Assembly: GCA_029249445.1 (NCBI GenBank)
Contig: JAQWHI010000006.1
Coordinates: 111,948-175,947 of the forward strand
DNA: 64,000 bases
Direction of reading: 5' to 3'
Source: Crocinitomicaceae bacterium
Lineage (GTDB): Bacteria; Bacteroidota; Bacteroidia; Flavobacteriales_D; Crocinitomicaceae
Shown: in pieces, positions 50,817-55,347 of the stretch
Position numbering within the stretch: position 1 is the first letter of the stretch
Layout: each line of letters starts with the position of its first letter
Notes under the pieces: model-generated
The model's database searches: none
What the model saw: the letters and a program-made list of their open reading frames with translations, nothing else
What the model was told of the DNA's origin: nothing
Made by a program: the position numbers and the translations under genes

Positions 50817-51896
50817 TTACTCTTTCAAGAACGGCACTCGTGCGAGCTGGCCCTCGGAATGTACCAATAACATATATGTGCCTTGACAAAAACCGCTTGT
50901 CGAAATACTTCCAGAAGAACCTACAATTCCATCGCCCACAACCTTCCCTGCCTGATCTATAATCAAATAAACAGCGTCAAAATCAAATCCTTGAATATGT
51001 AACTCATCGACTACTGGGTTCGGATACAAACGGACTTCGACCTCATCTTGCTCAGAAATTGCTAACTCCGGATTCACAATGTCACGAAACTCAATACTTG
51101 ACACCACTTCAATACCTGCAAGGCTGGATGTTTCAATACGCAAAACAGCATCTTTTTCACCATTCGTCCACCATTCGTATATATAGCTGTCTGGAACCGG
51201 AATAGGAATCCATGTACTAACACCAAAGGCGTCCAAATAAATCGAGTCTATTTCTGTTATTGTATGTTTTATACGCAAAGATTGAAACGTTCCAAATGGA
51301 GTCGTTATACTCCCCCACCCGTCAACTTCAGAGCTTCTAGTCCTGTATTGCCGCCAGATAAAATCTTGAATTGGATTCGCATCAATATTTGTGTATCCAT
51401 TTGAGGTGTAGGTATCTTGATATGATAGAGGCAGCTCGTAACGCGTCTCAATGGTGTCTGACTTATATGGAATATCAACACCGTTCACTGCCAGTGCAAA
51501 TCCAAGTGAATTGATTGCACTGGAACTTACTTTAGAGTATTGATAAATATCTGTAATACTAACTGGAAGGAAACTTCCCGCAAGATCCAGAGGGATATCA
51601 TCATTCTCGGTAAAATAGGACGCCTGATAAGACGAGGGTGCAAAAGGACCGTAAACCAAATCAACGATAAATGGTGCATTTGACATACTTGTGAATTCAC
51701 GGAGATCTTGACTTTCGGCTATTAAAGTTGAAAAATCCCATGTCCAATTTGCCCCTGTTGATGAGTAATCAATACCAAGATCAGTGGCTAAACTCATAAC
51801 CGCAACATCTCCTCCATCCGCGAAGTCCGCTTGTTGAAGTATTATTTGTCCAACAGACAAAAACGGCAAGAAACACACAAGAAGTACAGCCCTCAT
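50817..51896 (-). CDS. Secreted protein with T9SS type A sorting domain
   Basis: Signal peptide; C-term VRLYPNPVVDELHI...GTYMLLVHSEGQLARVPFLKE. Confidence 0.88.
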   Translation of the reverse strand: MRAVLLVCFLPFLSVGQIILQQADFADGGDVAVMSLATDLGIDYSSTGANWTWDFSTLIAESQDLREFTSMSNAPFIVDLVYGPFAPSSYQASYFTENDDIPLDLAGSFLPVSITDIYQYSKVSSSAINSLGFALAVNGVDIPYKSDTIETRYELPLSYQDTYTSNGYTNIDANPIQDFIWRQYRTRSSEVDGWGSITTPFGTFQSLRIKHTITEIDSIYLDAFGVSTWIPIPVPDSYIYEWWTNGEKDAVLRIETSSLAGIEVVSSIEFRDIVNPELAISEQDEVEVRLYPNPVVDELHIQGFDFDAVYLIIDQAGKVVGDGIVGSSGSISTSGFCQGTYMLLVHSEGQLARVPFLKE

Positions 51897-51934: not shown

Positions 51935-53017
51935 TTAGTCTATTTCTAGACCAAAAACAGTTGAAAAAGTGACTGGAATAATTTTCTCTGAAATACTGCT
52001 TTTTACGAATGCATTGATCGTTGCACTCACCTCATAGACGTTTTTCCCTGCAGCATTTTTGCCATAATGCTCAACATTCGAAATATCACATGTAGACAAT
52101 GAATTGTCTGCATAAATTGAGCTGTACGTCACTCCATCTGACTGAATCTCGATGCATACATTAAAATCTTGATATGGATCATCATAATTTGAAATCAATT
52201 CGAAAATTGAAAAATCACCTACTGAATTCCCATTTCCGCCTTCATCAATCAAAACGGATCGTCGTCGAATGACATCGTTATCAAAATGAACCTCTGAAGA
52301 TAACGTATGCAATTGACCCGGAGAATCATATTGAATCAATCCTCCGACTTCTCCCAAAATTTGTGTCCCATCTAAGAACCATTGAGCACAATGAGCAGAA
52401 GAACCGACACAATTTGTCGAAGCATTCACAACATTTGATTGAGACATGAAGTCAATATTAAAATTGGCGGACTTACTGTAACCAACAATAACTTCATCAC
52501 ACAATTGTGCTTCATCATTATTGGCAAAAGTTATGAATGCACAAACATTGTATTTTCCAGGCGCTTCAATTGGAACATTATTTTCACCGGCATAAACACC
52601 ATTAATGAACCATACTACTGACTGAATGTTTGGATTTCCTAAGAAATTTTTATCCAGATAAACCAAGGGCTCGGTGGGCTGTTGGGCAAAAAGTGGTGTA
52701 ACATTAGCAAGATTTTCCGAAGGGTTACGATCTGGTTGATCCAAAAAACCATCAAAGAATCCTATCTCAACAGAAAAATCACCATTACTCAGTTTTCCAT
52801 TAAACAAGGAAACTCCATTCACTATTTCTGAACCTGTATGCATATAGGTATTTTCATCGCCCGCAATCAAGCTGATTGCCTCACCATCAAACTCACCATC
52901 AAGCATAAAAATAGGAGCACTCGCTTCTGGTAAAGTAGGTACTGTTTTATCGCAGGAAGATATCATCAGTACAAGCAGTACAGCAGAGAATCCATATATA
53001 TGTCCAAATTTTTTCAT
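51935..53017 (-). CDS. Lipoprotein of unknown function
   Basis: Signal peptide with lipobox MISSCDK; 2-bp gap to upstream gene. Confidence 0.82.
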   Translation of the reverse strand: MKKFGHIYGFSAVLLVLMISSCDKTVPTLPEASAPIFMLDGEFDGEAISLIAGDENTYMHTGSEIVNGVSLFNGKLSNGDFSVEIGFFDGFLDQPDRNPSENLANVTPLFAQQPTEPLVYLDKNFLGNPNIQSVVWFINGVYAGENNVPIEAPGKYNVCAFITFANNDEAQLCDEVIVGYSKSANFNIDFMSQSNVVNASTNCVGSSAHCAQWFLDGTQILGEVGGLIQYDSPGQLHTLSSEVHFDNDVIRRRSVLIDEGGNGNSVGDFSIFELISNYDDPYQDFNVCIEIQSDGVTYSSIYADNSLSTCDISNVEHYGKNAAGKNVYEVSATINAFVKSSISEKIIPVTFSTVFGLEID

Positions 53018-53018
53018 T

Positions 53019-54587
53019 CTATTTTTTAAACCGAAGTGTTTTTCTTAAATAAATTTCGCCGTCAATCGGAAATCTATTTGTTGATTTGTCAAAGTACTCG
53101 TCATCAATTGAAGAACGCATTTCCGAACCTATTGTTCCGCCGATTGATAATCTTGGTGTTACTTTAAATGTGTATCCTATCGTAGGCTTTACTCTTAATC
53201 TATTCACACCATTCATATAGCCATACTGCTCTCTCGTGTGAGATGTGCTGGTTTGGATATTGGAATTTTGGCCCATCGTATGACTTTGAGTCGCTATGAC
53301 TACTTTAGAACTAAACACAAAAGACGGCCGTATTCCAAGTTCTAGGCGGTGTCTATTTATATTATAGCCCACACCCAGGCGACCTTCAACTACATACAAT
53401 TGCTTTAAATCCACCGAGAATTGATGTACTTCAGATCCAAAGCCGTAGATTTTTGCAGATCGTGTTAACGTAAGGTCATCATGATTTTCAACTCGACCCA
53501 TTACAGCAGCAATCAAAGAGAAGTTTCCTTTGTTCATCTCCATTCCTAATCCCAAACTGGCACTTGTTGATACGTGATCTGACGGAGCCACAATTGATTC
53601 TGAAAGTCCAACGTCCGCTTGAGTAAAATAATTGACATATGCGAGTTCAAATGGCACATATGGATTCTTATACACCAAACCAGCAGACGGAACGTCAAGT
53701 GCTCTAAACGCTAAAACAACGTCCTCGTCTGATATAAGTTCATCCGGTACGAAAGGTACATGTGGATTCTTGTACTCCAAACCAACAGACGGAACGTCAA
53801 GCGCTCTAAATCCTAATAGGACATTCTCATCTGATGCAGATTCGACCCGAATTGATCCTTGATCTTCTGCTCTTTCCAATTTTAACGGAACAGTAAATTT
53901 GTCTTTGACCGCCACCATTTCTAAACCGTTTGCTTCTTCCCTATCTATTGATCCAGAAACAGTTTCAATAGCAGAAGACAATTTCATCGGAGTAGCAGGG
54001 CCATCTTGCGTTTGCAAATTCAAAGCATCATCGATCTGCTCATTTGAATTGTCAGCCGCCTGACTTTGGACAAATCTCGCTTTGGTTTGTTTCGCAATAA
54101 ATGGTTCATTTTCGATATCAACTGACTTGTCTATGAAAAATAACAGTCCAATTGCCACAATGAATGCATAAGCCGTGACAAACCACAATAAATCTGGACG
54201 TCTGTTCCGACGCCAAATCGATAAAAACTCATCCCAATAGAACGGCTTGTAGGCAAAGTACAATCTTCTTGCCCCTTCTTTGTATATCGTATCTACACCA
54301 TTATCATTGAGTACTCCAGCATCTTCTGCTTCGAAACCATCAGTCGTGCTGTAAGATTCGTTAAATTCATTCCAGTATTGACTCGAGTAATAAAAAGACA
54401 AGTCTTCAGTACTCGCCGAATACATCTCGTCAATTTGGGCATCCGATAAATTGGATGTATTTGGAGCCCCATTTGCTCCTAAATACATAGATTCAAACTC
54501 GTCCCAATGGGATTCATCGTACGCTAAAGATATATTCTCAGAGCGCTCACGATATAATTTATCTATATTTTTATCCGTCCACTTCAT
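53019..54587 (-). CDS. Putative dual-membrane-spanning anti-sigma-like protein (cytoplasmic repeats, TM helix, periplasmic stalk, C-terminal OM beta-barrel-like domain)
   Basis: Three N-terminal repeats (IDKLYRERSENISLAYDESHWDEF etc.), single TM LLWFVTAYAFIVAIGLLFFI, tandem VPSxGLxYKNPxVPF repeats, alternating amphipathic strands at C-terminus; adjacent to ECF sigma gene. Confidence 0.75.
   Translation of the reverse strand: MKWTDKNIDKLYRERSENISLAYDESHWDEFESMYLGANGAPNTSNLSDAQIDEMYSASTEDLSFYYSSQYWNEFNESYSTTDGFEAEDAGVLNDNGVDTIYKEGARRLYFAYKPFYWDEFLSIWRRNRRPDLLWFVTAYAFIVAIGLLFFIDKSVDIENEPFIAKQTKARFVQSQAADNSNEQIDDALNLQTQDGPATPMKLSSAIETVSGSIDREEANGLEMVAVKDKFTVPLKLERAEDQGSIRVESASDENVLLGFRALDVPSVGLEYKNPHVPFVPDELISDEDVVLAFRALDVPSAGLVYKNPYVPFELAYVNYFTQADVGLSESIVAPSDHVSTSASLGLGMEMNKGNFSLIAAVMGRVENHDDLTLTRSAKIYGFGSEVHQFSVDLKQLYVVEGRLGVGYNINRHRLELGIRPSFVFSSKVVIATQSHTMGQNSNIQTSTSHTREQYGYMNGVNRLRVKPTIGYTFKVTPRLSIGGTIGSEMRSSIDDEYFDKSTNRFPIDGEIYLRKTLRFKK
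53653..53856. repeat. Tandem 102-bp coding repeat (2 copies, 34 aa)
   Basis: GGYACATRTGGATTCTTRTACWCCAAACCARCAGACGGAACGTCAAGYGCTCTAAA occurs twice, offset 102 bp. Confidence 0.85.
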
Positions 54588-54588
54588 A

Positions 54589-55158
54589 TCAAATAACCAT
54601 ACGCTGGTTTTGATTTTCCAATTGCTCTAATTTTCCTCTTAATTCTTTTCTCGCCGTAGAAAGGTGCCATTTTGATGTCCCTTCAGACATCTCAAGTAGT
54701 ACTCCAATTTCTTTGTGCGAGTAGCCCTCAATCACATACAGATTGAATACTTTACTTGTAGTGGCAGGAAGCTCTTTCACAAGTCTTATAATGTTTTCAT
54801 AACCTAAATTGCTCTCCGCATCATTGACCTCTCCTTGGGAGTGGTAGTCCAATTCACTCTCACTGTCACTTTTCGCAATTTGAGTCGTATATTTTTTATT
54901 TTTTCGGTACTCATCAATCAATGAATTCACCATTATTCGTTTCGCCCAGGGGTTGAAATTAATTGTATCTTCAACCTTATTGAGCCCTTTTAGTATTTTA
55001 AGAAATCCTTGATTGTAGGCCGCTCTTGCGTCCTCCTCGTTTTTGTTGTAACGAAAACAAACAGGCATGAGCATACCAAAGCAGTACTCATACATGAGAT
55101 TGACCGTCTTTCTGTCGTTTCGACGACAAGATTCAATTATTTCTGGAGTAACATTCAT
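54589..55158 (-). CDS. ECF-type RNA polymerase sigma factor
   Basis: NFNPWAKRIMVNSLIDEYRKNKK (region 2), LPATTSKVFNLYVIEGYSHKEIGVLLEMSEGTSKWHLSTARKEL (region 4). Confidence 0.95.
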   Translation of the reverse strand: MNVTPEIIESCRRNDRKTVNLMYEYCFGMLMPVCFRYNKNEEDARAAYNQGFLKILKGLNKVEDTINFNPWAKRIMVNSLIDEYRKNKKYTTQIAKSDSESELDYHSQGEVNDAESNLGYENIIRLVKELPATTSKVFNLYVIEGYSHKEIGVLLEMSEGTSKWHLSTARKELRGKLEQLENQNQRMVI

Positions 55159-55347
55159 TCAATATATTCAGCCAAATCTATTCGAAGGTTTTTGTCTTTA
55201 TAGACAAATTCTCGAGCCCGTTTAATATAAAATTATCGCCTTCCTTATGCCTATAACGGCAACTGATCAAGATTGGTTGGATAAAATTCAATATATTTCT
55301 TACGAGACACTAAATTTAGCAAATTTAGGAAGAACAAGATTGTAATT

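Follow-up and report, generated by a model that had tools for sequence, protein, structure and literature searches.

A predicted Dma-like anti-sigma protein with three tandem N-terminal units in a Crocinitomicaceae ECF sigma operon

Genes and features at the locus

The window analysed here, a 64,000-nucleotide stretch from a Crocinitomicaceae bacterium (genome assembly of 2.33 Mb in 23 contigs, 94% complete), carries on its minus strand an ECF sigma gene followed by a gene for a 522-aa Dma-like protein. From gene order across relatives, the pair heads a conserved predicted operon of four genes: sigma, anti-sigma, a lipoprotein and a protein with a type IX secretion (T9SS) tail, separated by gaps of 1, 1 and 38 bp. 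The features, in the direction of transcription, are:

55255..55280, minus strand: predicted ECF promoter CCAACC-N16-CGTT, conserved upstream of orthologous sigma genes
54589..55158, minus strand: ECF sigma factor, 189 aa (Pfam and NCBIfam matches)
53019..54587, minus strand: Dma-like anti-sigma protein, 522 aa (sigma neighbour, AlphaFold2 architecture), comprising the next six features
54474..54584, minus strand: unit 1, aa 2-38, helices 5-18 and 25-38 (unit HMM i-E 2e-14; AlphaFold2)
54348..54452, minus strand: unit 2, aa 46-80, helices 49-62 and 69-80 (unit HMM i-E 1e-9; AlphaFold2)
54210..54314, minus strand: unit 3, TM-proximal, aa 92-126, helices 95-108 and 115-126 (unit HMM i-E 5e-9; AlphaFold2)
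54123..54191, minus strand: transmembrane (TM) helix, aa 133-155 (AlphaFold2 helix and hydropathy)
53640..54122, minus strand: periplasmic tether, disordered (low pLDDT), aa 156-316, containing an internal duplication of ~35 aa
53034..53639, minus strand: C-terminal outer-membrane beta-barrel, aa 317-518 (AlphaFold2, Foldseek, Pfam in relatives)
51935..53017, minus strand: gene 3 of the operon, encoding a predicted lipoprotein of 360 aa (LMISSC near aa 17-22) and separated by 1 bp from the anti-sigma gene
50817..51896, minus strand: gene 4 of the operon, encoding a secreted protein of 359 aa whose T9SS type A tail is weakly matched (Por_Secre_tail 3.4e-5)

The sigma ORF matches Sigma70_r4_2 (3.5e-12) and Sigma70_r2 (2.9e-8) in Pfam and TIGR02937 (4.9e-22) in NCBIfam, while the NCBIfam ECF subfamily models all fell under their cut-offs. 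One base separates its TGA stop from the ATG of the 522-aa ORF, confirming the coordinates and spacing in the initial annotation. The two genes adjoin in orthologous loci as well, where the frames abut or overlap (by 4 bp in 45 pairs). Pfam found no anti-sigma domain in the 522-aa protein, nor any meaningful match at all. That protein used alone as query against genome contigs gave no match; a search of the contigs with an alignment of closer relatives recovered relatives in Fluviicola and other Crocinitomicaceae/Flavobacteriales metagenome assemblies. None were found among the viral contigs searched.

A homolog of the lipoprotein gene lies immediately downstream of the anti-sigma gene in about 60 loci. 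By our own reading the lipoprotein has a PKD-like look; Pfam gave no PKD match for it. The Por_Secre_tail match of the fourth gene product falls just under the cut-off. Directly downstream of the operon is an RNase P RNA gene (RF00010, 50392-50797, minus strand), and at least 28 of 60 loci have an RNase P core motif some 1.1-2.4 kb 3' of the anti-sigma gene.

Predicted topology of the 522-aa protein

An AlphaFold2 model built on an alignment of 41 relatives predicts a protein reaching from the cell interior to the outer membrane. The TM helix, with a hydropathy peak of 2.45, is preceded by RRNRRPD and followed by the acidic VDIENE, which argues for an N-terminus inside the cell. Order is absent from residue 156 to about 308, with pLDDT <50 over 156-299. 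The internal duplication of this tether (aa ~251-320) is visible at the protein level; it was not among the repeats that Tandem Repeats Finder called in the DNA. At 161 aa (124-249 aa in relatives), the tether would be ample for crossing the periplasm. The C-terminal region is modelled as about eight strands with pLDDT mostly 87-98. Its top PDB matches in Foldseek are outer-membrane barrels, including the 8-stranded NspA, OmpX and Ail, at low TM-scores (best TMt 0.61), and relatives match the Pfam families OMP_b-brl and OMP_b-brl_2 (best 2.4e-8).

The initial annotation, made from the sequence alone, had proposed a soluble, repeat-containing N-terminus of ~130 aa, one strong TM helix (aa ~132-152), a repeat-containing linker and a ~190-aa C-terminal barrel, in the manner of the Dma anti-sigma factors. 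Each of these segments is predicted in our analysis and conserved in relatives, the N-terminal repeats as the three unit copies listed above, and the structure prediction that it had suggested as a check returned both the TM helix and the barrel. Since the resulting domain order equals that stated for Dma proteins (PMC13088901), its reading holds for the architecture.

In a closely related trio of loci (L041, L043 and L052), identities are 95-98% for sigma, 74-94% for the units and 37-48% for the tether; thus the units are constrained and the tether sequence is not, with a tether length that stays at or above 124 aa despite the drift. Amino-acid identities were used in place of per-unit dN/dS, the units being too short and dS often saturated.

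Tandem copies of the N-terminal unit

In the N-terminus, a ~35-aa helix-loop-helix unit occurs three times in tandem, as scored with an HMM made from single-copy relatives. Among 41 proteins, a single unit is present in 32, two units in one, three in three (the window protein included), four in four and about five in one. Five unit matches per protein are also seen at 15 more loci, which form a separate lineage spread over five other genera (L101-L115); units 2 and 5 are halves in most of these loci, unit 2 having lost the second helix motif and unit 5 the first. Within the genus of the window, the hallmark residues D..[IVL]D..[FY] and Y..[YFH][WF]..[FM] are kept at all unit positions, including all 27 units of the multi-unit proteins. 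The nearest relative is L033, with whose units 1, 2 and 4 the window units 1, 2 and 3 pair best.

A single origin of the multi-unit state was considered and rejected: by parsimony the multi-unit label needs about four changes on the best sigma tree, and well-supported branches force at least two. Proteins with two tandem N-terminal units of another sequence type also occur. One is an anti-sigma-like protein in the window's own genome (L178:3911-5338, contig C10), with a PKD-like periplasmic part and a C-terminus resembling, by eye, a gliding-motility/T9SS tail; it has no Pfam match. The paralogs L128 and L131 likewise have two units of a different sequence type. Given the several changes on the sigma tree and these two-unit proteins, the unit has been multiplied more than once. 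The literature searched gave no relevant description of tandem anti-sigma domains, which is not proof of absence. What goes beyond the initial annotation is the multiplied anti-sigma-type units, which are the new part, together with the four-gene operon and the promoter, which are solid additions.

The promoter and its predicted regulon

The predicted promoter is the only match to CCAACC-N16-CGTT in the window (0.20 expected by shuffling), with 122 bp between the start of the -35 box and the sigma ATG. With a spacer of exactly 16, the motif lies upstream of sigma in 66 of the 67 orthologous rows, among which L064 and L137 are the same locus; a few rows vary at one base. The exception, L046, has the motif inside an over-extended ORF call (G031:C76:13058-13083); the start of its sigma ORF (L046:5372-6133) was probably called too far upstream. 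The motif was found at none of 13 non-orthologous sigma loci and in 2% of random segments of the same loci. Its conservation across sigma orthologs therefore strongly suggests that the sigma factor autoregulates its own operon.

Across the 30 genomes of the genus that have the system, the motif occurs 321 times vs 213 for a reversed-pattern control; the counts are 10 vs 19 in four genomes without the system (none in G001). The window's own genome shows no overall enrichment (6 vs 13), so single sites there need caution. An ORF starts 26-250 bp downstream of 18 of 39 sampled motif sites vs 2 of 20 reversed-control sites (Fisher p=0.008), in a small sample with crude intergenic calls. Candidate targets include: (i) a second ECF sigma gene, with the motif at 181-188 bp in five genomes, the window's among them; (ii) rpoD, with the motif at 58 bp in two genomes; (iii) a lipoprotein gene in two genomes; (iv) recurrently, T9SS-tail proteins akin to the product of the fourth operon gene; and (v) one-off cases encoding PorP/SprF and a patatin-like phospholipase. 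In the window's genome the motif also precedes a gene for a 784-aa T9SS-tail protein whose trypsin-like domain scores just under the Pfam cut-off. We predict from these motif positions a small, autoregulated regulon of secretome and outer-membrane genes with a sigma cascade.

Some RNA-like features were seen near motif copies. Two copies in the window's genome, L190 (motif on the minus strand, at 916 in the reverse complement) and L191 (motif at 991), have a hairpin and T-run within about 110 nt, resembling sigma-dependent small RNAs. The ~110-nt leader that separates the promoter from the sigma ATG in the five-unit lineage (L066, L101-L107 and L109-L115; e.g. L104:2327-2449) looks like a conserved structured RNA, with a covarying hairpin (16 of 21 predicted pairs change on both sides), an invariant ACTACTTATTC and, just before the sigma gene, a GC-rich, terminator-like hairpin with a T-run. 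Rfam gave no match for this leader, for which a small RNA and an attenuator are both possible identities. It seems to be absent from the window and from L108.

Comparison with known systems

Dma proteins consist of an N-terminal sigma-binding domain, a TM helix, a disordered tether and a C-terminal barrel; Dma1 and Dma2 affect vesiculation and polysaccharide loci, and the Dma2 operon of Bacteroides thetaiotaomicron includes a third gene of unknown function (PMC13088901). Compared by published description, Dma1/Dma2 with Das1/Das2 share with the window system the adjacent ECF sigma gene and the domain order. The window system differs in its threefold unit, in its partner genes (lipoprotein and T9SS-tail protein) and in its predicted targets, which are secretome genes. 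By analogy of domain architecture, it is placed with the Dma proteins as a tandem-unit variant.

The M0N98_03760-61 pair of Phocaeicola vulgatus likewise combines a sigma factor with a long anti-sigma factor, predicted to span the periplasm and end in an outer-membrane barrel, and responds to an envelope-attacking antibacterial toxin (PMC9308784); repeated units are not reported for it, and it comes from a different bacterial order. In Flavobacterium psychrophilum, SM6 promoters have an ECF-type -10 CGT box, and their targets include one ECF/anti-sigma pair, THC0290_1774/1773, and T9SS components (PMC9723704). The -10 box, the ECF/anti-sigma pair and the T9SS targets are all shared with the window system; the paper gives no -35 box or anti-sigma architecture, and identity of SM6-THC0290_1774/1773 with our system is only a lead.

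Another kind of sensor is suggested elsewhere in the window's genome (L177:3695-4558, contig C12), where a further ECF sigma gene is followed by a gene whose product has one TM helix, an anti-sigma-like N-terminus and, at the C-terminus, a CHU_C type IX secretion signal (PF13585, 6.5e-11). Such a T9SS-signal-tailed anti-sigma factor could monitor that secretion system.

Interpretation and alternatives

Taken as a whole, the locus probably encodes a Dma-like, two-membrane-spanning anti-sigma factor of Crocinitomicaceae, which is the best explanation of the data. The anti-sigma role we infer from the sigma neighbour, the abutting or overlapping frames, the conservation of the units and published precedent. 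As a co-fold proxy we used L104, a relative from a different lineage whose sigma and anti-sigma genes share a reading frame and are separated by 3 bp, with the stop read as a residue purely as a device. In this single remote co-fold, the model of sigma plus units showed no docking (pTM 0.30, unit pLDDT about 50-60), and its PDB matches were accounted for by the sigma part; the outcome counts neither for nor against binding.

In the mechanism we propose, each ~35-aa unit would be able to hold the adjacent ECF sigma factor, a job presumably done by a single unit in most relatives. The TM helix would pass through the inner membrane, the ~160-aa tether through the periplasm, and the small barrel would sit in the outer membrane, where barrel or tether, by analogy with Dma1/Dma2, might report the state of the outer membrane or surface. 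A change in the outer membrane or barrel would be passed along the chain, probably until the N-terminal part is lost or cleaved, and would free sigma. The freed sigma would transcribe its own operon from CCAACC-N16-CGTT and, beyond it, a limited number of genes encoding surface proteins, secreted (T9SS) proteins and additional sigma factors.

One could instead take the protein for an ordinary outer-membrane protein, its TM helix a signal sequence and its sigma neighbour incidental, as small barrels are common in Bacteroidota and Pfam gives no anti-sigma domain. A hydrophobic helix 130-170 residues in, behind conserved units, is unusual for a signal peptide, however; the sigma gene adjoins in the orthologous loci with its frame abutting or overlapping, and the architecture agrees with published anti-sigma factors (PMC13088901, PMC9308784), all of which makes this account very improbable.

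As to the extra units, the three could hold three sigmas, give a higher effective affinity for one, serve other sigmas or be partly idle. Polyvalent sigma binding is plausible, and we tentatively advance, as a possibility to be held loosely, that each of the three units holds one sigma, so that a single chain anchored in the outer membrane stores several sigmas and lets them go together, the size of the store being tuned in evolution by gain or loss of units. Somewhat unlikely is that sigma is bound by one unit alone, the TM-proximal one (or else the first), and that the remaining units are spacers or duplication relics that add no regulation. That one unit suffices in most relatives agrees with such idle units, as do the half-units of the five-unit lineage, but it would leave unexplained why all 27 units of the multi-unit proteins in the window's genus retain the hallmark residues and why, between relatives with only 37-48% identity in the tether, the middle units show 74-84%. 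The extra units might also hold other sigmas, such as the second ECF sigma with the same promoter: the near-constant motif distance at that gene in five genomes would fit, as would the seven sigma-70-type matches in the window's genome. We consider this improbable, as the second ECF sigma is under the motif in single-unit genomes too (G030, G031 and G020), so that unit multiplicity does not follow it.

Significance

In the literature searched, experiments on Dma-type signalling are confined to Bacteroidales. A conserved Crocinitomicaceae version, for which the promoter motif is precise and a regulon is predicted, would make what the barrel senses addressable outside the gut. The presumed sigma-binding element, present at one to five tandem copies, forms a natural copy-number series with which to ask whether anti-sigma valency sets the threshold or the burst size of a stress response.
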